From: an uncultured Opitutia bacterium | GTDB taxonomy: Bacteria; Verrucomicrobiota; Verrucomicrobiia; Opitutales; Opitutaceae | Length of the DNA stretch: 32,466 nucleotides | Reading direction: 5' to 3' | Assembly (NCBI GenBank): GCA_903869955.1 | Contig: CAIQBC010000141.1 | Location: 1-32,466 of the forward strand | Position numbers and translations under genes: made by a program | The notes under the pieces: model-generated | Databases searched by the model: none | The model's input: the letters and a program-made list of their open reading frames with translations, nothing else | Told to the model about the DNA's origin: nothing | Shown here: positions 14,798-29,848 of the stretch, one piece after another | Layout of the letters: every line of letters begins with the position of its first letter | Numbering within the stretch: the stretch's first letter is position 1

Positions 14798-14984
14798 GCC
14801 GCCACAAGGCTGGTATTGTTACCGGCGGTTTCGCCGTTCAATTTCGAGCACGAGCTTAGTCTGGTTCAGGAAATGAACGAAACGCCGGTTGCATTTCAAA
14901 AAGGCTCGTGGGCCAAAGAATCGAAGCTTTGCATTCTCCTTTCCCTGCACCTTTGTTTCTTCGCGTCTTTTGCGCTTAAAAATT

Positions 14985-16556
14985 ATGTCCACAGGCATTG
15001 TCCATCTGGTCGGCGCCGGTCCCGGCGAACCCGGCCTCGTCACCCTTCGCGCCCGCGAACTCATCGCCTCGGCAGAGGTGCTCATCTACGACCAGCTCGT
15101 CCATCCCGAGCTGGTAAAATGGTGCCGGGCCGGGTGCGAGGTGATCTACGCCGGCAAAACGGCCGGCTGCCACACCGTGCCGCAGGAGGAGATCGAGGCG
15201 TTGCTCGTGAAGCATGCGCGGGCCGGCAAACGCGTCGTGCGGCTCAAGGGCGGTGATCCCCTGGTCTTCGGCCGTGGTGGCGAGGAGGCGCGCGCGCTGG
15301 CCTTGTCCGGCGTCGCGTTTGAGATCGTACCCGGCGTCACCGCCGCGCTCGCCGCCGGGGCCTATGCGGGCATTCCGCTCACCCAGCGCCACACCAGCTC
15401 GGCGCTCGTTTTTATCACCGGTCACGAGGATCCCACGAAACCCGGCCCCACGGTGGAGTGGCGCAGCTACGGCGCGCTGAAGCAGGCCACGCTCGCCATC
15501 TACATGGGCATGGGCCGCCTGCGCCACATCCTTGCCGAGCTCATGGCCGGCGGGCTCGCGCCCAAAACCCCCGCCGCCGTTGTGCAGTGGGCCTCGCTCG
15601 GCCGCCAGCGCAGCGTGGCCGGCACCGCCGCCACGCTCGCCGATCTGGCGGAAAAGGCCGGTCTCGCCGCACCCGCGATCATCTTCGTCGGCGACGTGGT
15701 GAAAAACCACGAGGCGATTGACTGGTTCGAGCGCCTGCCGCTCTTCGGCCGCCGCGTCGCCATCACGCGCACACGCGACCAGAACAGCGAGCTGCGGGAC
15801 AAATTGGAGGCGCTCGGCGCCGAGGTGCTGGAGCTGCCGCTCATTCGCGTGACCAAGGACGTGAGCAAGGACGGGCTCGTCGAGATTCTCGCCGAGCTGG
15901 GCCAATACGACTGGATCGTGTTCACCAGCGCCAACGGCGTGCGGTTTTTCTTCGAGGAGTTTTTCAAAGGCTTCGGGGATGTGCGCGCGCTCGGCGGGCT
16001 GCGCTTCGCCTGTGTGGGCGCGGCCACGGCCCGTGAGATCGAAAAGCATCATCTAAAGGTTGAGTGTCAGCCCGCGACCGCCACCGGCGAGTCGCTGGCC
16101 GACGCGCTCATCGCCACCGGCAGCCTCGACCATGCGAAAGTCATCGTCGTCTGCGGCAATCTCAACCGCGACGCCCTCGTGAAAAAGCTCGAGGCCGGCC
16201 GCGCCATTGTGGACCGCCTGCCGCTCTACCGCACCGAGCGGACCGACCTCGCCAGCGATCCGATCGCCGACGACTTTCGCTCGCGCGGGGCCGATGCGAT
16301 CCTGTTTGCCAGCTCGTCGGCGGTGCAGTCCTTCACCGAGCAGGCCAAGTCACTCCAGCTCGCCAAGGACGCCAAACGCCCGCTCGCCGGCAGCATCGGC
16401 CCGCAGACGAGCGAGACGATGAAACAGCTCGGGTTGCCGGTCGATTTCACAGCGAAGCAACCGAGCCTCGACGCGCTGGTGGCGGCGTTGGTCAAAACCC
16501 TCTCCGCCCGTCCAAACGCCGGGATGCCGGAAGCCAAAACCGTGCGTGGCAAATAA
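14985..16556 (+). CDS. cobA-hemD: Fused uroporphyrinogen-III C-methyltransferase / uroporphyrinogen-III synthase
   Basis: VHLVGAGPGEPGLVTLRARELIASAEVLIYDQLV, VRLKGGDPLVFGRGGEEA, PGVTAALAAGAYAGIPLTQR (SUMT); then GRRVAITRTRDQNSELRDKLEALGAEVLELPLIR, DWIVFTSANGVRFFFE (HemD). Start at 14985. Confidence 0.95.
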   Translation: MSTGIVHLVGAGPGEPGLVTLRARELIASAEVLIYDQLVHPELVKWCRAGCEVIYAGKTAGCHTVPQEEIEALLVKHARAGKRVVRLKGGDPLVFGRGGEEARALALSGVAFEIVPGVTAALAAGAYAGIPLTQRHTSSALVFITGHEDPTKPGPTVEWRSYGALKQATLAIYMGMGRLRHILAELMAGGLAPKTPAAVVQWASLGRQRSVAGTAATLADLAEKAGLAAPAIIFVGDVVKNHEAIDWFERLPLFGRRVAITRTRDQNSELRDKLEALGAEVLELPLIRVTKDVSKDGLVEILAELGQYDWIVFTSANGVRFFFEEFFKGFGDVRALGGLRFACVGAATAREIEKHHLKVECQPATATGESLADALIATGSLDHAKVIVVCGNLNRDALVKKLEAGRAIVDRLPLYRTERTDLASDPIADDFRSRGADAILFASSSAVQSFTEQAKSLQLAKDAKRPLAGSIGPQTSETMKQLGLPVDFTAKQPSLDALVAALVKTLSARPNAGMPEAKTVRGK

Positions 16557-18509: not shown

Positions 18510-19607
18510 TCACCACGACCAGCTGTCCTCGTCGGACTGGTAATAATCGAGACCGGGGCCGAGCTTTTCCAGCAACGGGTCGGTCAGGCGGCTGAGCTCG
18601 GCCCGCAGCGCGGGTGCGAGCGGGGTGCGCGCCGCGCGGACGTTGGCCTCAAGCTGCGCCCGGTTGCGCGCACCGACGAGCGTGCAGGTGACGGCAGGGT
18701 TGCCGATGGCCCACGCGAGCGCGAGCTCGCCAAGCGGCCGGCCGGCCTGCTCGGCCGCAGCGCACAGCGCGTGGAGCGCGGCGAGGGTTTCCGTCTCGCA
18801 GCCGGGGCCGCCGTGCCGCGCACCGGGCCGGTCGCCGCGAAAATGGCGGGTGCGGACGCGGATGGGCGGCAGTTCGTCAAAGCCGGCGAACTTCCCGGAG
18901 AGCAGCCCCTGCGCGAGTGAAAAATAGCCCAGCACGCCCAGCCCGTGCTGCGCGCAGGCGGGCAGCGCCTCACGTTCAATCGCGCGCGCGAGGAGGTTGT
19001 AGGGCAGCTCGTTCAATGCGAGCGGCACGCCCACGGCGCACGCCTCCGCCAGCTGCGCGACGCCGAAATTGCTCACGCCGAGGTGGCGGATTTTCCCCTC
19101 ACGTCGCAGCCCGTCGAGCGCGTGCAGCGCCTCGCCGATCAGCGGCGGGCGGGCGAGCCGCTGCGGGTCGTCGGTGTAGTGCCGCAGCGAGCTGGCATTG
19201 AGCGGCCAGTGCAGCAGGTAGAGGTCAAGGCGGTCGGTCTGGAGGCGCGCAAGGCTGGCCTCGCAGTGGCGGCGCACCTCGCCGGGGTAGCAGTGGTCGG
19301 GCTGGATTTTCGTGCCGATGATGGCGGCGTCGCGCCGGCCGTGCAGCGCCACCCCGAGCGCCCGCTCGCTGGCGCCGCCGTTGTAGGTTTCCGCCGTGTC
19401 GAAAAAATTCACGCCAAGGTCGAGCGCATGGGCCACCACCTCGTTTACGTCGCGCTGGCTTTGCCCGCCCCAGTAGGTGCCGCCACCAAAGGAAAAACAA
19501 CCAACTCCGAGCACGGGCAGCGTCAGCGCGGCCGCGCCGCAGGCCCGTGTGGGGAAGGCGGCCGGCGGCCGGGATGGCGGGGGAGGGGAGGAGGTTGGCT
19601 GTGGCAT
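18510..19607 (-). CDS. Aldo/keto reductase
   Basis: LGVNFFDTAETYNGGASERALG, DLYLLHWPLN, IRHLGVSNFGVAQLAEA, AIGNPAVTCTLVGARNRAQLEANV. Lies a few nt after the UxaA-family stop on the same strand. Confidence 0.9.
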   Translation of the reverse strand: MPQPTSSPPPPSRPPAAFPTRACGAAALTLPVLGVGCFSFGGGTYWGGQSQRDVNEVVAHALDLGVNFFDTAETYNGGASERALGVALHGRRDAAIIGTKIQPDHCYPGEVRRHCEASLARLQTDRLDLYLLHWPLNASSLRHYTDDPQRLARPPLIGEALHALDGLRREGKIRHLGVSNFGVAQLAEACAVGVPLALNELPYNLLARAIEREALPACAQHGLGVLGYFSLAQGLLSGKFAGFDELPPIRVRTRHFRGDRPGARHGGPGCETETLAALHALCAAAEQAGRPLGELALAWAIGNPAVTCTLVGARNRAQLEANVRAARTPLAPALRAELSRLTDPLLEKLGPGLDYYQSDEDSWSW

Positions 19608-19612
19608 CACGA

Positions 19613-22333
19613 TCAGGTGGACACGCCAAGCAGGCCGCGGGAAAGCTGAAAGTCCACGAAGCCGCCGGCGTTCGCGACCGGAAGCAAGTCGCCTTGTGCC
19701 ACCGCGCCCAGCAGGCGGAGCAGCGCGGACTCGTTCGCGTCCGCGTCAGGGGTGAGCAGGAGATCAACATCCGCCACCGACGCGGCCGGCAGCACGTCCG
19801 GCTCGGCCGCCTGCACGAGCGGCAGCAGGGGATGGCCCTGCCGGGGCGTATCGCCGACCAGGCCCAGAAACAGGTGCGCGCCGCAGGCGCCGAGGCCCGT
19901 GAGGTTTTCCACCCAGTGGTCGGAGTCGGTCGCCACGACATGCAGGCCGGGAGCGGTGAACGGCTGGCCGTAGGCGAGGGTCGCGCGGGGCGGTGTCGCG
20001 CCGAGCAGCGCCGTGCGAAACGCCGCGACGGCGAGCAACGGATCGCTCTCGGGCAAAAGCACGGAGCCGCCCGCAGCGAGCAGGGTGCGGGCCACGCGTG
20101 CCAACGCCACCACCCCGGCGGGGCCGACGGGTGACGCGCTTAGGAGCGCGACCGTGAGGGCGCCGAGCCCCGTGTCACGACGCGGGGCCGCACGCAGGCC
20201 GGTGCGGGCGAACCACGACTCGACTTGGGCGAGCACCTTGGCGATGCCCCCGTCGAGCTGCACGCTCGCCCAGCCGAAACGCTCCAGCGGCAGACCGGCG
20301 GCCTCAAACTGGCGGCGCATCGCGTCGTTGGGGATTTTTTCGCAGCCATGTTCCAGCAGCAGCGCGGCGGCGACATTTGGGTGCGTGGCGTAGCCACGGT
20401 AGGTGCGTTGGAGCAGCGCATACATGGACTCGCCACCAAACCCGCAGCCCTCGGTATGGGTGAGCGCCACGAAACGGTCGAGGCCGAGCGCGGCGGCGAG
20501 ACCCTTTTCGTTCATCCGCTCGCTGGCGAGGCGCGCGATCTGCGCGGAGCACATGCTGGTTGGCAGCACCAGGCCGACGCGCTCGGTGGCGTGGCGGTTT
20601 TCGTTTTTGAACAGGTGGAGCGCAACCTTCGGGCACGCTTCTTTCCGGGGAAAATCCGCCCGAAGGTCGGGTTCCACCCGCAGCGGCACGCCGTCGGGCG
20701 CGGCGCGATTCCGGATTTCCACGAGGCGCGAGCCATCGGTCTGCCGCCAGTCGCGCCAGAGCGAGGCCTGCGAATGGCCCGCGTGCTCGCCGCGCGTTTT
20801 CTGGCCGGAGGCGGTGGCGATGAGCAGCTCAAACGACTCGGCGGCGAGCGTCTCCATCGGCTCGCCGTCCAGATAGCGGCCGGCATTGATGTCCATCTCA
20901 TGCACGAGGAGCTGGTGCCGGCGCGTCGTCGTTGTCACCTTGAGCGTTGGCACGAACGGAAAGTTCGTGATGGAGCCGTTGCCGGTGACGAAGAGAAACA
21001 GGTTGCAACCCGCGCCGACCTGCCCGGCGATGCCCTCGAGGTCGTTGCCGGGGCTGTTCATGAAATAAAAACCGGGCGCGCCGAGCGGATCGGCGTAGTC
21101 AATGACGTGGTCCACGCGGGTACGCGGATCCTTTTTGTGGACGGCGCCAAGCGACTTGAGCGCGATGTTGTACAGGCCGCGAAATTTGTTGCCGGCGGAG
21201 GGATTGGCCTCGGGCGTGACGCCGTGCCAGGCCAGCCGCGTGCGAAACCGGTCAATCGCGCCGAGCAGCGCGCGGGCGGTGCCGGCATCGCGCACGTTCC
21301 TGATCAGGTAGGACTCTGCGCCGGCCAGCTCGTCGGTCTCGCCCAGCACCCCGATGCCGCCGTGGCGCACGACCTCGTGGACGACTGCGCCGGCGAGCGG
21401 ATTGCCCGAGACGCCCGAGAACGCGTCGGAACCGCCGCATTGCAATGCGACCCGCAGGGCGCTGAGCGGCGCGGCGGTGCGGGTCTGGGCCGCGACGCCC
21501 GGCAGCCAGCGGCGCACAATCGCCTCGCCCTCGGCGAGCGCGGCCGCGAGGCCGGCGCGGATGCTCAGAAAGTGGTGCGGAACGTCGGCGAGCGGATCGC
21601 CCCGTGCCGTCATGAAGTCGCGCAGGCGGGCGTTGGTGATCGGCTCAACCCCATAATCCACGGCGAGCACCGCCCCGACATTCGGATGCACCATGAAGCC
21701 GGCGAGCGCGCGCAGCACCTCAGCGGCGTTGTTGGGCTCGCGAGGACCGCCGCCCTCGGTGTGGGCGACGGCCACGATGCCGTCGAGCGTTGGAAACACC
21801 CGGGCGAGCGCTTGCAGCCGCGCGGCCAGCTGCCGCGCGAAACTCGCCGTGCGCGACGTGGTGCCGAGGATGACGATGGTGTTGCGCGTGCCGGTGCCAC
21901 GTTTTCCCGGCCGCCGGTAGCCCGCGAACGTGCGTGGCTGGGCCACCAGCGCGACTAGTGGCGAGGGGGTGAAGGCCGCCTCGTTGAACACAAACGGAAC
22001 GAGGTGGTCGGCGAAATTGGGTTTGCCCGGCAATGCGAAGCCGACCCGCCGACCGGCCAGTGACTCCAGCATGGACTGGTTGCAGAGGTAGTCGCCCGGC
22101 GCAATGGGTGTGAGGGCGTGGCCGAACGGCAGCCCCCACGAAAGCAGCGGCCCGCCGGGCGCGATGGGTTGCACGGCGAAGCGATGGCCCTCGAGAATCG
22201 TGTGTGCGAGTACGCAACGAGCGCCGTTGAGCTCAATGCCGGTGCCCGCAGCGAGCTGGCGGATGGCGATGGCCACGTTGTCGCCGGGCGCGGGCAGACG
22301 GCCGGTGGTTTGGAGCGTAAGGAGTGGGGACAT
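19613..22333 (-). CDS. UxaA-family hexarate/altronate dehydratase-like protein with internal tandem duplication (about 906 aa)
   Basis: Copy 1 C-subdomain LQCGGSDAFSGVSGNPLAGAVV...GETDELAGAE, NKFRGLYNIALKSLGAVHK, VHEMDINAGRYLDG; copy 2 N-subdomain TSMCSAQIARLA, LTHTEGCGF, HPNVAAALLLEHGCEKIPND. Start MSPLLTLQ at 22333. Confidence 0.85.
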   Translation of the reverse strand: MSPLLTLQTTGRLPAPGDNVAIAIRQLAAGTGIELNGARCVLAHTILEGHRFAVQPIAPGGPLLSWGLPFGHALTPIAPGDYLCNQSMLESLAGRRVGFALPGKPNFADHLVPFVFNEAAFTPSPLVALVAQPRTFAGYRRPGKRGTGTRNTIVILGTTSRTASFARQLAARLQALARVFPTLDGIVAVAHTEGGGPREPNNAAEVLRALAGFMVHPNVGAVLAVDYGVEPITNARLRDFMTARGDPLADVPHHFLSIRAGLAAALAEGEAIVRRWLPGVAAQTRTAAPLSALRVALQCGGSDAFSGVSGNPLAGAVVHEVVRHGGIGVLGETDELAGAESYLIRNVRDAGTARALLGAIDRFRTRLAWHGVTPEANPSAGNKFRGLYNIALKSLGAVHKKDPRTRVDHVIDYADPLGAPGFYFMNSPGNDLEGIAGQVGAGCNLFLFVTGNGSITNFPFVPTLKVTTTTRRHQLLVHEMDINAGRYLDGEPMETLAAESFELLIATASGQKTRGEHAGHSQASLWRDWRQTDGSRLVEIRNRAAPDGVPLRVEPDLRADFPRKEACPKVALHLFKNENRHATERVGLVLPTSMCSAQIARLASERMNEKGLAAALGLDRFVALTHTEGCGFGGESMYALLQRTYRGYATHPNVAAALLLEHGCEKIPNDAMRRQFEAAGLPLERFGWASVQLDGGIAKVLAQVESWFARTGLRAAPRRDTGLGALTVALLSASPVGPAGVVALARVARTLLAAGGSVLLPESDPLLAVAAFRTALLGATPPRATLAYGQPFTAPGLHVVATDSDHWVENLTGLGACGAHLFLGLVGDTPRQGHPLLPLVQAAEPDVLPAASVADVDLLLTPDADANESALLRLLGAVAQGDLLPVANAGGFVDFQLSRGLLGVST

Positions 22334-22601
22334 CGGCGCGGAGCATGGCGGCGAGGCAGCGGGAGTCATGGGAAAACTTTGGCATCGGCCTGGCCCTGTG
22401 GAGCAATGGAGGGATGCATTTGGTCGGGACACCACCTCCTGGCGTCTGGTGATGGCTCAGAAAGCCGTCCCTGCCTTGGGATTCGGATTCAATATGCGTC
22501 CCTCCGGGGCAATATTCTTTCTCGCCATTTATTAACTTTTAGCTTCACTGCTCTCCGGCCGCGCCCTGGGCCCGGCCCTCCCGTTTTACGCCCTGCTCGC
22601 C

Positions 22602-25133
22602 ATGCACCCTCGCCTTCCTTTCCGCCTTGTTGTCCTGCTGGTTTTTCTCGCCATCGCGCGCTCCTTGCCCGCGCAGGTGCCCCAGCTCATCAACTATCAG
22701 GGCCGCGTGGTCGTCGGCACGGCCAACTTCAACGGCACCGGCCAGTTCAAATTTGCCCTCGTCAACGCGGATGGCTCCGCGACCTACTGGAGCAACGACG
22801 GCACTTCCAACGCCGGCTCAGAGCCCACCGCCCCTGTCGCCCTCACCGTGGCCAACGGTCTCTACTCCGTCCTGCTCGGTGATGCCACGCTGGCCAGCAT
22901 GACCGTTGTTCCTGCCACCGTCTTCATCCATCCCGAAGTGTATCTGCGGGTCTGGTTCGACGACGGCACCCACGGGTCGCAGCAGCTCGCACCCGACCAG
23001 CGGATCGCCGCGGTCGGCTACGCGATCATGGCCGGCAACGTGCCCGATGGCTCCATCACCGCCGCCAAGCTCGCCCGCGGTGCGGTCACGGCGACCAGCA
23101 TCGCCGTCGGCTCGATCACCAGCGCGCAACTGGCCACCGGCGCGGCGGCGGCAAACCTCAACCAGGGTGGCGATGCCATCGTCCAAAATTACCCGCAATT
23201 TCAGACCACGACGAACAGCCCCGCTCTGGCCCAGGGTGGCGGCACGGTTGTCCTCGGTACGCAAGGGCTGGCGGGCAACCTCTTTGGCGGATTCACGGGC
23301 AGCTATTCTCTGGGCGGATTGCAGGTGAACACCCCGGCGTATTTCTCCGGTGGCACCACCGGCCCGCTCGACGTGCCGTCGCAATATTGGACGAAAATGT
23401 ACAAGCTCGGCACCACCTCCAATTCGCAGCTGAATTGGGTGAAATTTGGCGACAGCGTGGCGGACAAAATCACCGGGTCGCTGCTGAGCGACGCGCAGAG
23501 GGCCTATGGAAATGCGGGTGCGGGTGGCATGGAGGTGACGCCGTCGCTGACCGGCACGGCGGTGGCCGTGACCGGCGACTACATTTACTACCCGACCGGC
23601 AGCTACGAGAAGACCGTGGCCGTGGGGGACACCATCACCTACCCGGCCAACATCCTCGTGATGGCGGACAAGGTGAGCATCCCCTACGTCATGGAGCCGG
23701 GGGGCGGGACCTTCAAGGTGCAAACGGCGACGGCGAGCGCTCCCGCCTTCACGTTCTCCCCATGGGCCGACGAGGTGACGGGGATCAATGCCTCCGCCCT
23801 GGCGATTGACCTTGGCTTTGTGACCATCACGCGCAGCGCCCCCGTGGCCCTCAAGGTGCGCGTGGTTTCCACCTCGGGCGGGGCCAACAGAATTTTGCGG
23901 CCGTCGTTCCGGGTGACGACCTCGAACGGGTTCTTTCTCTACGGGCTAAATCTGGGCGGCATTGCGCTGGTGGACATGAACACCACCAACGCGAACATCC
24001 GCACGAAGCTCTGGGCGGACATCGCGCCGGATGTCATCACGGTGGAATTCCGCGACAACGGCACTCATTTTTACGACGATCTTGAGACCTTGGCCGCGAA
24101 CCTCGGGCCGACCGCGCCATTCGTGTTCCTAGGGGTGCCTCCCGGAATGGTTTCGAGCAGCGGCAGCTACATGCTGAACGCGAATCCGACGGTTTCGACC
24201 ATCGTCGAGAACGCGCAGTTGGCGGCCTTTGCCCACAATCACAACTATCAGTTTTGGGATGATGCGACGGCCTTCACGGCGACCGAGGGAACGGTGCAGG
24301 ATTTCGTGCGGTTGGGCTGGCAGGGCGACGGGACCCACGTGGACGCGATGGCGGACACGTCCTCGGCCAACCGGCTGGCCGCCGACCTGCATCTGTTTGA
24401 CAACGTGTATGGGGTCAGCCCGCGCGATTTCGCGGCGGTGGATGGCAGCCTCTCCGACGCGCTCACGGTCAACTCAATGAACGGCAAGGATGGGGCACCA
24501 AGCAATTCCCTGTGGTTTGGCGTGCGACTGGGCGAACATCACGATCAGAACTATTCTGCGGGTGCGCAATATGGCTACCTCGATTTCCGGCAGGCGTTGC
24601 GGTTCGACAATGAGGACGGCAAGCAGATTTTCACCTTGAACTCGGACGGTACGGCGCAGTTTGGCGCCAACGGTTATTCCATCGGGTTTGCCGCCCCGCT
24701 GGTGGGGAGTGGGCCGTCCAAGGGCATGTTCTTTGATGGCATCAATGCAGGGTTTGGCATTTGGAACGGCAACAGCGAGGTCGGCAACGGGCTCAAGATC
24801 GTGCGTGGAAGCGGCGCGGACAGCACCATCCAATCGAATTCCAATGGCGTGAACCTCGACGGCAGCATCAATTTGATTCTGGGAAAAACGACGGGCGGGA
24901 CTTTCACGGTGCTGAATGCGACGACCACGAGCTTGCGGGCGTTCACGCCGGTCCGGCTGCCGGGCTATACGGTGGCGACGTTGCCCAGCGCGGCGGCCGC
25001 CGGAGATGGTGCGACGGCCTTCGTGACTGACGCCACGGTTTCGCTTTCCGGTGGCATCGGCACCGCTCCCGTGGGTGGCGGGACGAACAAGGTGCCGGTG
25101 TTTTCTGACGGCACGGGGTGGATCATCTATTAA
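22602..25133 (+). CDS. Secreted/surface fibre-like protein with central SGNH-like hydrolase region and phage-type C-terminal module
   Basis: Signal peptide MHPRLPFRLVVLLVFLAIARSLPAQ; PQLINYQGRVVVGTANFNGTGQFKFALVNADG; VKFGDSVADK (SGNH block I-like); GDGTHVDAMADTSS (block V DxxH-like); C-term YTVATLPSAAAAGDGATAFVTDA...VGGGTNKVPVFSDGTGWIIY. Confidence 0.7.
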   Translation: MHPRLPFRLVVLLVFLAIARSLPAQVPQLINYQGRVVVGTANFNGTGQFKFALVNADGSATYWSNDGTSNAGSEPTAPVALTVANGLYSVLLGDATLASMTVVPATVFIHPEVYLRVWFDDGTHGSQQLAPDQRIAAVGYAIMAGNVPDGSITAAKLARGAVTATSIAVGSITSAQLATGAAAANLNQGGDAIVQNYPQFQTTTNSPALAQGGGTVVLGTQGLAGNLFGGFTGSYSLGGLQVNTPAYFSGGTTGPLDVPSQYWTKMYKLGTTSNSQLNWVKFGDSVADKITGSLLSDAQRAYGNAGAGGMEVTPSLTGTAVAVTGDYIYYPTGSYEKTVAVGDTITYPANILVMADKVSIPYVMEPGGGTFKVQTATASAPAFTFSPWADEVTGINASALAIDLGFVTITRSAPVALKVRVVSTSGGANRILRPSFRVTTSNGFFLYGLNLGGIALVDMNTTNANIRTKLWADIAPDVITVEFRDNGTHFYDDLETLAANLGPTAPFVFLGVPPGMVSSSGSYMLNANPTVSTIVENAQLAAFAHNHNYQFWDDATAFTATEGTVQDFVRLGWQGDGTHVDAMADTSSANRLAADLHLFDNVYGVSPRDFAAVDGSLSDALTVNSMNGKDGAPSNSLWFGVRLGEHHDQNYSAGAQYGYLDFRQALRFDNEDGKQIFTLNSDGTAQFGANGYSIGFAAPLVGSGPSKGMFFDGINAGFGIWNGNSEVGNGLKIVRGSGADSTIQSNSNGVNLDGSINLILGKTTGGTFTVLNATTTSLRAFTPVRLPGYTVATLPSAAAAGDGATAFVTDATVSLSGGIGTAPVGGGTNKVPVFSDGTGWIIY

Positions 25134-25187
25134 CCCACGGCAAATTTTTGCTGGATGGCGGCGTAACTTTTGGCCGCAAAACTTCTC

Positions 25188-26099
25188 ATGAAGCCCCACG
25201 TCTTATCCCTCGCTCTGCTGGCCGCTGTTACCGGCCTCGTGCCCCTGTGCGCGCAAACGCGCACGAGCGCCAGCTACAGCCTCACCACGGAGACGGTTGA
25301 CGCCGGCGGCACCGGCCTGGGCAGCGCCAATTACCACGTTGCGGCCACGGTGGGGGGGATTGTGGGCCTTGCCACGGTGGGGGCCAGCCAGGCCCTCACC
25401 ACCAAGAGCGGCTACACCGGCCAGCTTTACGATTTTACCGCGCTTCAACTGGGGGCGGCGGCGGCCACGCTCAGCGAGTCTGGCACGCTTCAGCTCACGG
25501 CTGCGCTGCTGGCGGATGACCACACCACTTTTTCCCTGGCTTCCCCGGCGGTCGCTTGGAGCGTCATTTCCGGGCCACTGGTTTCCATCTCCTTGGGTGG
25601 CGTGGCGACTGCCGGCGCGGTTTACGAAAATACCGGCGCGGCGGTGGGCGGCACGGCGGGCGGTTTCAGCGCCACACTCTCGCTCACGGTGCTCAATGTC
25701 ACCGACGACGATTTTGGCCTCTACGCCGGCGACGGTCTGCCCGACGCATGGCAGGTGCAATTTTTCGGGCTGAACAATCCGCTCGCCGCCCCGACCGCCG
25801 AGCCGCTCCATGACGGGCAGAGCAATCTCCTCAAGTTTCTGACCGGCTATGCGCCGGACAACCCCGGCTCCCGCTTTGTGACGACCGGCACGGCGGTGGG
25901 GGGAGGCAATTTCTCGCTCCAGCTCTCCCGGGTCCAGCCGGGCACCCGCTACCTTTTCCAGCGCAGCACCGACCTGCAAAACTGGACGACCGTGCAAACC
26001 TTGGAACCGGTTGCCATCGTGCAACCCTTCACGCAGTTGCTTCCCGCTCCCGGCAATGCCAGTTTCTTTCGCGTGCTGATCGAGCCGGCCACGCCGTGA
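25188..26099 (+). CDS. Secreted protein with Verrucomicrobiota-style DGLPDAWQ...FFG and RSTDLQNW...FFRV modules
   Basis: Signal peptide [85 protein letters not shown]...[10 protein letters not shown]. Confidence 0.7.
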
Positions 26100-26263
26100 C
26101 GAGGCCGTCGGCGGTTCGGGTTGGCCGTGCGACGGCTTGGCGGGGGCGCGGTGGCAAAACGGCCGATGCGTTCCGCGATGAAAAGTCCGCTCCTTCCCTG
26201 TGCCCGCGCTTGACTTGCTCCCGCAGGGCCGCATGGATGCCCCGGCCCGCGCACCTTTTCTCC

Positions 26264-27175
26264 ATGACCCCATCGGAATTGAAACAAACTCTCTCGGCCG
26301 GCCTGCTATCGTTTCCCGTCACCGACTTCGACGCGGCGGGCGATTTCCGCCCCGACACCTATGCCCGCCGGCTCGAATGGCTCATGCCCTACGGCGCGAG
26401 CGCGCTCTTCGCCGCCGGCGGCACGGGGGAATTTTTTTCCCTCACCGCGCCGGACTACGGCGCGGTGATTCGCACGGCGGTCAGCACCTGCCGGGGCCGC
26501 GTGCCCATCATTGCGGGCACTGGCGGGCCGACGCGGCAGGCGATCGCGTTTGCGCAGGAGGCGGAGAAAATCGGGGCGCAGGGCGTGCTGCTGCTGCCAC
26601 ATTACCTGACCGAAGCCTCGCAGGAAGGTCTGGCGGCGCATGTCGAGGCGGTGTGCCGGGCGGTAAAATGTGGCGTCATCCTCTACAACCGCGGGGTCTG
26701 CCGCCTGACTGCCGCCACGCTCGTCCCGCTCGCGGAGCGCTGCCCGAACCTCGTCGGTTTCAAGGATGGCCTCGGCGAGATCGAGCTGATGGTGTCCATC
26801 CGCCGCCAACTCGGCGACCGCTTCGCCTATCTCGGCGGCCTGCCGACGGCGGAAGTCTATGCGGCGGCTTACAAGGCGCTCGGCGTGCCGGTCTATTCGT
26901 CGGCGGTGTTCAATTTCATCCCGAAGACGGCGATGGACTTTTACCGCGCGCTGGCGACCGACGACCACGCCACGATGAACAGGCTGCTCGACCGATTTTT
27001 CCTGCCCTACCTTGAGATCCGCAACCGCCGCGCGGGCTACGCGGTGAGCATCGTCAAGGCCGGCGTCAGGCTTGCCGGTTATGACGCCGGCCCGGTGCGT
27101 CCACCGCTGGTTGACCTCACCGCCGAGGAGACCGTGCGCCTAGCGGAGCTCGTTCGTGCACTCGGCCCGCAATAA
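26264..27175 (+). CDS. kdgD: 5-dehydro-4-deoxyglucarate dehydratase (DapA/DHDPS superfamily)
   Basis: [105 protein letters not shown]. Start at 26264. Confidence 0.93.
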
Positions 27176-27295
27176 CCCCGTGACGTTCCTGATGCATTGG
27201 CTGGCGACACCGCCGATGGGAGCGGTCGGTGCTCATCCCGTCCGGGTGCCGCTTGCCGGGTGAAAGCGTTCCGCCCGCCCGCAGAATTTTCCGCC

Positions 27296-28642
27296 ATGCA
27301 TCTGCTCGTCCCCGATTCCGACACTCCCACTGTCACCGCGATGCGGGTCATCCCCGTGGCCGGGCGCGACTCGATGCTCCTTAATCTCAGCGGGGCGCAC
27401 GGCCCATTTTTCACCCGCAATGTCGTGCTGCTCACGGACAACGCCGGCCGCACCGGCGCGGGCGAGACGCCCGGCGGCGAACGTATCCGGCAGACGTTGG
27501 AGGACGCGCGCTCCTTCGTCGTCGGCCGGCCCGTTGGCATGGTTAACGCGATCCTCGACCAGGTGCGCGAGCAATTTGGCGATCGCGACGCCGGCGGACG
27601 CGGCGTGCAAACCTTCGATTTGCGCACGACCATCCACGCCATGACCGCGCTGGAGGCCGCGATGCTCGACCTGCTTGGCCAGCACCGGAGCGTGCCGGTG
27701 GCCGATTTGCTCGGCACCGGGCGGCAACGCGACACGGTCGAGGTGCTCGGTTATTTGTTTTACATCGGCGACCGCCGGAAAACCAGTCTGCCCTACGAAG
27801 CCCCGCCCGCATCTGCTGACGGCTGGCTGCGCCTACGGCATGAGGAGGCGCTGGCCACGCCGGCCGTTGTGCGGCTGGCCGAGGCGGCGCATGCGCGGTA
27901 TGGGTTCAACGATTTTAAACTCAAAGGAGGGGTGCGTTCCGGCGCGGAGGAGATGGAGGCCGTCACGGCGCTGGCGGCGCGTTTTCCCGGCGCGCGCATT
28001 ACGCTGGACCCCAATGGCGCCTGGTCGCTCGCCGAGGCCGTGCGCCTCTGCCGCGGCCAGCAGCGCGTGCTCGCCTACGCGGAGGATCCATGTGGCGCGG
28101 AGCACGGCCGCTCGGGCCGCGAGATTATGGCGGAGTTTCGCCGCGCCACCGGCCTGCCGACGGCGACGAACATGGTCGCGACCGACTGGCCGCAGCTCGA
28201 GGACGCGCTGCGGCTGGAAGCGGTGGACATCCCCCTCGCCGACCCGCATTTCTGGACCATGCAAGGCTCGGTGCGCGTCGCCCAGCGCTGTGTCGAGCAC
28301 GGGCTGACGTGGGGCTCGCATTCCAACAACCATTTTGACATCTCGCTGGCCATGTTCACCCACGTCGCCGCCGCCGCGCCGGGCCGGGTGACGGCGATTG
28401 ACACGCACTGGATCTGGCAGGACGGCCAGCGGCTGACGAAGGAGCCGCTCGTCATTGCGGGCGGTCGCCTGCGCGTGCCCGACCGGCCCGGGCTCGGCTT
28501 GGAGGTTGATGATGCGCAGCTGGAGCAGGCGCATGAGCTTTACCGTCGGCACGGTCTTGGTGCGCGCGACGACGCGGCGGCGATGCAGTTTCTGGTTCCT
28601 GGGTGGGAATTTGATCCCAAGCGGCCGTGTCTCGTGCGGTGA
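27296..28642 (+). CDS. gudD: Glucarate dehydratase (enolase superfamily)
   Basis: [153 protein letters not shown]. Confidence 0.96.
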
Positions 28643-28828
28643 ACGAGCCGTGCATCGCCGGATCGCCTGCGGTCGCCGGCTCTGCCTCAATACCCGGGGC
28701 TCCGCGTGCGGACGTTTTGGCGTTTGGCGGGCCTGATGCCTGATGCCCGATGCCTGTGGGTGGCACGGTGCTTGCGCGGCGACCCGCGACGGTATTTCAT
28801 CAGGCACGTTTTTTCTGCCGTCCCCTTC

Positions 28829-29848
28829 ATGCGCGCCTACTTCCTCCGCCGCCTGCTGCTCATCCCGCCCACGTTGCTGGGGGTCACGGTGCTGGTGTTT
28901 TGCATCACCCGGTTCGCCCCCGGCGGGCCGGTCGAGCAGGCGATCATGCGGGCGCAGGCGGGCGAAACCGGCGCCGGCGGCACGTCGCGCGGGCCCAACC
29001 GCGGGGCGCTTTCCACCGCGCAGATCGAGCAGCTCAAGGCCTACTACGGTTTCGACCAGCCGGTCCACGTCGCCTATTTTCACTGGCTCGGCCGGGTGTT
29101 GCGCGGCGATCTCGGCAGCTCGTTCACCTACAGTGAACCCGTCTGGCAGGTCATCGCCCGGTGCCTGCCGGTCACGCTGGCCTATGGCGTGATCAGCCTC
29201 GTGCTGGTCTATCTCATCAGCCTCCCGCTCGGCATCCTCAAGGCCGTGAAGCACCGCACGCTGTTGGATATGATCTCTTCCGTGGTGGTTTTTGTCGGCT
29301 ATGCCATCCCCGGCTACGCGCTCGGCGCGCTGCTGCTGGTGTTCCTCGCGGCGCGGCTCCGCTGGTTCCCCATGGGCGGTTTTGTGGGCGATAACTGGGA
29401 TGACCTCAACGGGTGGGGCCAGATCAAGGATTTTTGCTGGCACGCCGTGCTGCCGCTCACCTGCTACACGCTGGGCGGCTTCGCTTTCGTGACGCTGCTC
29501 ACCAAGAACCAGCTCTTGGACAACCTTGCCGCCGATTACGTCCGCACCGCTGTCGCCAAGGGGGTGACTTTCCGCCGCGCGGTCTTCGCGCACGCCTTCC
29601 GCAACTCGCTCATCCCGCTCGCGACCGACTTCGGCCAGACGCTCGGCGCGCTCGTCGTTGGCTCGATCCTGCTTGAACCGCTTTTCGACATCAACGGGAT
29701 GGGGCTGCTCTTTTATCACTCAATCCAGAGCCGCGACTCCATGGTGGTCATGGGTGTGCTGCTCGTGGAGGCGCTGATGTTGCTCACGAGCAATATCGTC
29801 GGCGACGTGCTCGTGGCGCTCGCCGACCCGCGGGTGCGTTTCAAATAA
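28829..29848 (+). CDS. yejB: ABC transporter permease, YejB-type (peptide/oligo importer family)
   Basis: MRAYFLRRLLLIPPTLLGVTVLVFCITRFAPGGPVEQAI; YGFDQPVHVAYFHWLGRVLRGDLGSSFTYSEPV; EPLFDINGMGLLFYHSIQSRDSMVVMG. Confidence 0.88.
   Translation: MRAYFLRRLLLIPPTLLGVTVLVFCITRFAPGGPVEQAIMRAQAGETGAGGTSRGPNRGALSTAQIEQLKAYYGFDQPVHVAYFHWLGRVLRGDLGSSFTYSEPVWQVIARCLPVTLAYGVISLVLVYLISLPLGILKAVKHRTLLDMISSVVVFVGYAIPGYALGALLLVFLAARLRWFPMGGFVGDNWDDLNGWGQIKDFCWHAVLPLTCYTLGGFAFVTLLTKNQLLDNLAADYVRTAVAKGVTFRRAVFAHAFRNSLIPLATDFGQTLGALVVGSILLEPLFDINGMGLLFYHSIQSRDSMVVMGVLLVEALMLLTSNIVGDVLVALADPRVRFK

Follow-up and report, generated by a model that had tools for sequence, protein, structure and literature searches.

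UxaA altronate dehydratase and the D-arabinonate dehydratase C785_RS13685 belong to the same superfamily as the protein described here, and four conserved cysteines have been proposed as their iron ligands (PMC6336799). The four residues, Cys134, Cys173, Cys208 and Cys276, are conserved in the UxaA/GarD superfamily except in sulfolactate sulfo-lyase; a rubredoxin-like ferric site with the four cysteines as ligands was proposed, and Cys-to-Ser variants were tested (Watanabe et al. 2019, PMC6336799). The proposal was based on cysteine conservation and EPR, and the nature of the iron site was left open (PMC6336799). Both UxaA and C785_RS13685 are single modules with the cysteines in one polypeptide, and GarD, the E. 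coli galactarate dehydratase (PDB: 6u7l; TIGR03248), is likewise one module with four cysteines in one chain. In SuyAB, the sulfolactate sulfo-lyase reported as the exception to four-cysteine conservation, and in the heteromeric L-fuconate dehydratase, the domains reside on more than one polypeptide (PMC6336799). We found no description of complementary N–C halves for either of these two enzymes.

We analyzed a 32,466-nucleotide stretch of DNA from an uncultured Opitutia bacterium (contig CAIQBC010000141.1), referred to below as the window, which encodes a fused protein of this superfamily. The fused protein shares with GarD the domain order SAF, GD_AH_second and GD_AH_C, the fold over its first copy, the QCGGSDAFSG motif and the pathway context. 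Unlike GarD, UxaA and C785_RS13685, it consists of two modules, and its cysteines are split 3+1 between them. Fused dimers in which one of two sites is kept are known in other folds, for example, double-hotdog hydratase 2, which follows the same fusion principle but is unrelated to the fused dehydratase in fold and chemistry. Within the UxaA/GarD family, no description of a fused or split arrangement was found in open-licence papers.

Domain organization and tandem duplication of the fused dehydratase

By its domains and fold, the fused dehydratase is a member of the UxaA/GarD superfamily. Two starts are available to its reading frame (Table 1); residue numbers given here refer to the 940-residue frame, from which 34 is subtracted to obtain the numbering of the 906-residue protein, and fused homologs start at approximately residues 38–41 of the longer frame. 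The domain order is SAF, N1, C1, linker, N2, C2, where N and C denote the GD_AH_second and GD_AH_C domains of the respective copies. In Pfam searches, the protein scored 156 bits for GD_AH_second (PF04295; cut-off 27.3), with two stretches matched, and 266 bits for GD_AH_C (PF20629; cut-off 26.8), with a single stretch matched because C2 has decayed and is shorter by about 60 residues. The SAF domain was absent from the listed Pfam matches at E 1e-3 and was recognized by phmmer (Table 1).

In a profile-profile comparison (hhalign, with profiles of fused homologs), copies 1 and 2 aligned over 328 columns with 26% identity (E = 3e-39). When the domains were compared individually, N1 matched N2 (E 4e-23) and C1 matched C2 (E 4e-16), and the crossed pairs N1–C1 and N1–C2 gave no match. 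A UxaA-type tandem duplication had been proposed in the initial, sequence-only reading of the window from the same order of elements occurring twice. The profile alignment bears this out; every motif quoted in that reading is present in the order stated, and the UxaA motifs it used for comparison are right. An origin of copy 2 from another family is ruled out by the same alignment, which places the second half in the family of the first.

Table 1 Features of the window, and of the Alicyclobacillus tolerans loci L144 and L146.
Feature	Position	Strand	Remarks
Uroporphyrinogen-III methyltransferase + uroporphyrinogen-III synthase (HemD) frame	14889-16553	+	both domains in one frame
Aldo/keto reductase	18510..19610	-	directly downstream of fused gene
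Fused dehydratase CDS	19613..22333	-	ATG start at 22333; 906 aa
Alternative start of fused dehydratase	GTG at 22435	-	extended frame of 940 aa
SAF-like N-terminal domain, residues 52-117	22085..22282	-	phmmer match to UxaA SAF fragment 3k3s and GarD 6u7l
N1 (GD_AH_second of copy 1), residues 172-312	21500..21922	-	without three Cys and Gln, with G-x-R-N
GTRN motif, residues 182-185	21881..21892	-	in copy 1 only
C1 (GD_AH_C of copy 1), residues 324-563	20747..21466	-	intact catalytic motifs
C333 codon (QCGGSD; C1)	21437..21439	-	Cys in 120/120 homologs
N2 (GD_AH_second of copy 2), residues ~618-752	20180..20584	-	with three Cys and Gln, without G-x-R-N
C629 codon (PTSMCSAQ; N2)	20549..20551	-	Cys in 120/120 homologs
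C664 codon (HTEGCG; N2)	20444..20446	-	Cys in 120/120 homologs
C698 codon (HGCEK; N2)	20342..20344	-	Cys in 120/120 homologs
Q726 codon (N2)	20258..20260	-	Gln in 120/120 homologs; copy-1 counterpart S/T/R
C2 (GD_AH_C of copy 2, decayed and shortened), residues 753-940	19616..20179	-	motifs lost; hhalign C1-C2 E 4e-16
Secreted-looking ORF	22602-25133	+	no Pfam match
Secreted-looking ORF	25170-26099	+	no Pfam match
KdgD, 5-dehydro-4-deoxyglucarate dehydratase	26096..27175	+	TIGR03249 425 bits, cut-off 374
Glucarate dehydratase-like (GudD-like) protein	27197..28642	+	TIGR03247 810 bits, just under cut-off 829
ABC transporter permease, peptide type	28706..29848	+	
A. tolerans A	L144:3761-4948	-	396 aa; N-domain Cys replaced, TECGGSDACSG intact
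A. tolerans B	L144:2344-3339	-	332 aa; three N-domain Cys and Gln, decayed C domain
A. tolerans second pair, larger	L146:1645-2799	-	385 aa
A. tolerans second pair, smaller	L146:492-1376	-	295 aa

Complementary loss of conserved residues in the two copies

The two copies lack complementary sets of residues. N2 has three cysteines and a glutamine that are gone from N1, and C1 has the QCGGSD/NPS-GN/PGND/TGNGS set that is gone from C2. Each of the residues C333, C629, C664, C698 and Q726 is invariant in 120/120 distinct fused homologs, which span 36–83% identity, and the four sites corresponding to the cysteines in the opposite copy are never occupied by cysteine (195, R/H/L; 229, G/S/D/A; 263, V/T/N/I; 766, S/T/A). 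Residue 291, the copy-1 counterpart of Q726, is never glutamine (S/T/R). The most distant fused homolog, at about 36% identity (L016), has the identical split. The distribution seen in the window's protein, with N-domain cysteines in copy 2 only and CGGSD in copy 1 only, is fixed in the entire set, and 0/120 homologs have both halves intact. Copy 1 also retains G-x-R-N, a family motif located at the beginning of the N domain that copy 2 has lost and that was absent from the list made in the sequence-only reading.

A scan of reference genomes yielded at least 80 fused homologs, and further ones came from searches by genome group. The hosts comprise Opitutae, other Verrucomicrobia, Paenibacillus, Alicyclobacillus, Anaerolineae, Caldilineaceae, Thermomicrobiales, Poribacteria, Latescibacteria and Rubrobacter, among others; within the Paenibacillus piri group, 39 of the 106 searched genomes carry the fused gene. 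With 120 homologs, an oddity of a single genome or assembly is ruled out.

We aligned 147 N–C units, including 29 fused proteins. All four cysteines are within one chain in 74 of the non-fused relatives. In the 29 aligned fused proteins, copy 1 has the C-domain cysteine only and copy 2 has the three N-domain cysteines only; neither N–C module of the fused protein holds the complete four-cysteine set, which occurs once per whole chain. We considered the positions at which 93% or more of the 74 intact relatives agree. Of these, copy 2 alone has kept six in the N domain (C, C, P, C, E, Q) and none in the C domain, compared with two in the N domain and 30 in the C domain for copy 1 alone (Fisher p 1e-5). 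By number and spacing, the cysteines described in PMC6336799 appear to correspond to the three of the N domain and the one in QCGGSD, so that the proposed iron-ligand set would be split 3+1 over copies 2 and 1. The four cysteines probably bind iron. A coevolution analysis with a reduced alphabet had little power, with only 72 effective sequences against 900 columns, and even pairs within domains were not enriched; therefore, no inter-domain coevolution signal was used.

Predicted structure and a probable composite active site

The AlphaFold2 model, obtained for 903 residues with 57 fused homologs, had a pLDDT of 92 and a pTM of 0.93. Its best PDB match is GarD (6u7l; E 2.5e-31, TM 0.81–0.83 by GarD length) and, because this match extends over ~530 columns, SAF and copy 1 adopt the GarD arrangement. 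The segment comprising C1, the linker and N2 was also predicted alone (window positions 20180–21469), with a pLDDT of 86.5 and a pTM of 0.85. We read the latter value as direct docking of C1 on N2, on an estimate, made without a control, that unconnected domains of such sizes would score clearly lower. There is no sign in either prediction that the halves are far apart, and C333 and the N2 cysteines would be expected to meet in space.

We consider it likely that the protein is a UxaA/GarD-type dehydratase in the form of a covalent pseudo-dimer, SAF-N1-C1-N2-C2, with one composite site and a hexarate substrate; the pseudo-dimer is real and widespread, and very probably has a single composite active site. 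Two subunit copies of a probably iron-dependent sugar-acid dehydratase would have been joined end to end. In the surviving site, the three cysteines and the glutamine of N2 would meet the QCGGSD/NPS-GN/PGND/TGNGS residues of C1, whereas the mirror site formed by N1 and C2 would have decayed, with N1 and C2 serving mainly as scaffold and N1 still supplying the G-T-R-N motif. Because the partition follows the domains, as judged from conservation, the site is expected to consist of C1 and the Cys3-Gln set of N2, to which N1 may add GTRN. A covalently fused pseudo-dimer with partitioned catalytic residues is what the sequence-only reading had envisaged, and the results support it: the halves are modeled together, the complementary losses are conserved among homologs, and the second half belongs to the same family as the first.

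The partition of residues is silent on which N2 meets which C1. The composite site could instead be shared by two polypeptides, with N2 from one fused chain and C1 from another, which would make the protein an obligate larger oligomer rather than a self-sufficient pseudo-dimer. We regard this as unlikely, given the prediction of a single compact unit for the whole chain (pTM 0.93) and the confident docking of C1 on N2 within a single segment (pTM 0.85).

Split counterparts in Alicyclobacillales

Alicyclobacillus tolerans (G292) has two neighboring UxaA-type genes, A and B, at locus L144 (Table 1). Together with 15 genomes from a search of the order, the A/B pair is present in 16 Alicyclobacillales genomes. 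The three N-domain cysteines are missing from every one of the 16 A proteins, which have CGGSD, and all 16 B proteins have the three cysteines and the glutamine and lack the C-domain cysteine, with one B ending at a contig end. In the loci read, an ORF of ~110 amino acids for an SAF domain lies between A and B; therefore, the five domains of the fused protein are here on three chains, an operon arrangement like that of SuyAB and the heteromeric L-fuconate dehydratase in having domains on more than one polypeptide. At L144, B alone keeps five N-domain and no C-domain positions, and A alone keeps no N-domain and 33 C-domain positions (p 2e-6). Because separate neighboring genes carry the identical partition, complementation between protomers is supported.

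In the tree, A groups with an intact protein (L151; support 99/97). A clade of A and fused copy 1 is disfavored (AU p 0.008, 0.0495 and 0.038, two of these being near 0.05), and with it a single loss common to split A and copy 1 of the fused protein. For B and fused copy 2, which are both on long branches, a shared origin was not rejected (p 0.4 and p 0.69); one tree joins them at 96/98, a grouping to which the long-branch warning applies. These comparisons support a separate origin of the split and fused forms on the A side only.

Ordinary UxaA/GarD homodimers would, as we infer, build their site between subunits. We lean slightly toward a broader scenario in which the UxaA/GarD iron site is generally intersubunit, with one protomer giving three cysteines and its partner the fourth, and the homodimer has been made asymmetric, with one site, more than once, either as a fused chain or as separate A and B proteins alongside a free SAF subunit.

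Alicyclobacillus tolerans has a second divergent UxaA-type pair at L146 (Table 1). The larger protein has QCGGSD and lacks the N-domain cysteines, and the smaller has at most the first cysteine; possibly, this pair has decayed as well and has a different chemistry.

In seven UxaA relatives (L140, L147, L148, L152, L184, L190 and L191), the C-domain cysteine is intact and the N-domain cysteines are absent, and no B-type partner was noticed near any of them. Several such relatives have arginine at the second cysteine site (HAYGR, HPYGR, HHLGR). Because these relatives and sulfolactate sulfo-lyase lack the cysteines, a C domain without them is possible in the family. The existence of such relatives, whose C domain is intact, and of a sulfo-lyase without the four-cysteine set would fit a fused protein in which copy 1 is a complete enzyme no longer needing cysteines, while copy 2 has a separate role in metal binding, structure or regulation. 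However, C333, the three copy-2 cysteines and Q726 are all invariant (120/120), the 3+1 split recurs in the A/B pairs, and the model has C1 docked on N2, which makes this reading very improbable relative to a composite site.

Genomic context and probable substrate

The fused gene of the window has an aldo/keto reductase gene directly downstream and genes for KdgD, a GudD-like protein and an ABC transporter permease on the other side (Table 1). An aldo/keto reductase gene also follows the fused gene in five Paenibacillus loci and one Trueperaceae MAG. In eight loci, the window included, KdgD or a relative from the DHDPS family is encoded close to the fused gene, and KdgD adjoins the fused gene in several Opitutae. 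GarR-type reductase genes form a cluster with members from five loci (annotated in L050), and a D-galactonate/GudP-type MFS transporter is encoded near the fused gene in several loci. No other GD_AH_C protein was found in the window's genome, which is 89% complete. Because the context comprises KdgD, GudD, GarR and hexarate-type transporters, the fused protein would be a hexarate dehydratase, most likely acting on galactarate and feeding the neighboring KdgD.

The architecture proposed above is also compatible with another hexarate or sugar acid as substrate, which may differ by lineage. Outside Opitutae, the neighbors vary (SDR, Gfo/Idh/MocA, sulfatase, aldo/keto reductase), and the fused protein scores weakly against the GarD equivalog TIGR03248, at 192 bits versus a cut-off of 730.85. 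We give this possibility considerable weight, somewhat short of even; against it, KdgD and the GudD-like protein in the window, KdgD in Opitutae and GarR in five loci belong to the glucarate/galactarate pathways.

In the window, two secreted-looking ORFs separate the dehydratase gene from that of KdgD (Table 1). They look like an insertion or rearrangement because KdgD is directly beside the dehydratase in a locus of the same genus (L002). In Poribacteria (L067–L072, L092, L095, L099 and L100), the upstream flanks of the fused gene contain a conserved block unlike the gar/gud context elsewhere, with a methyltransferase, a trypsin/PDZ protease, a PLD-like protein, a phytanoyl-CoA dioxygenase and an FGE-sulfatase/BNR protein. 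Elsewhere in the window, uroporphyrinogen-III methyltransferase and synthase domains are encoded in one frame (Table 1).

Implications for the UxaA/GarD family

Judging from open-licence papers, dimer fusion with loss of one site appears to be new within the UxaA/GarD family, the principle being already known in other folds. The fused dehydratase clearly illustrates how a shared active site can decay asymmetrically once subunits are fused, and it has a counterpart in split form. With the four cysteines distributed over two non-equivalent half-enzymes, the geometry and stoichiometry of the iron site can be tested directly, with a single site expected in each fused chain and the halves expected to complement each other. 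Annotation of long 'UxaA family' proteins, which occur in many phyla, is affected by the arrangement as well.
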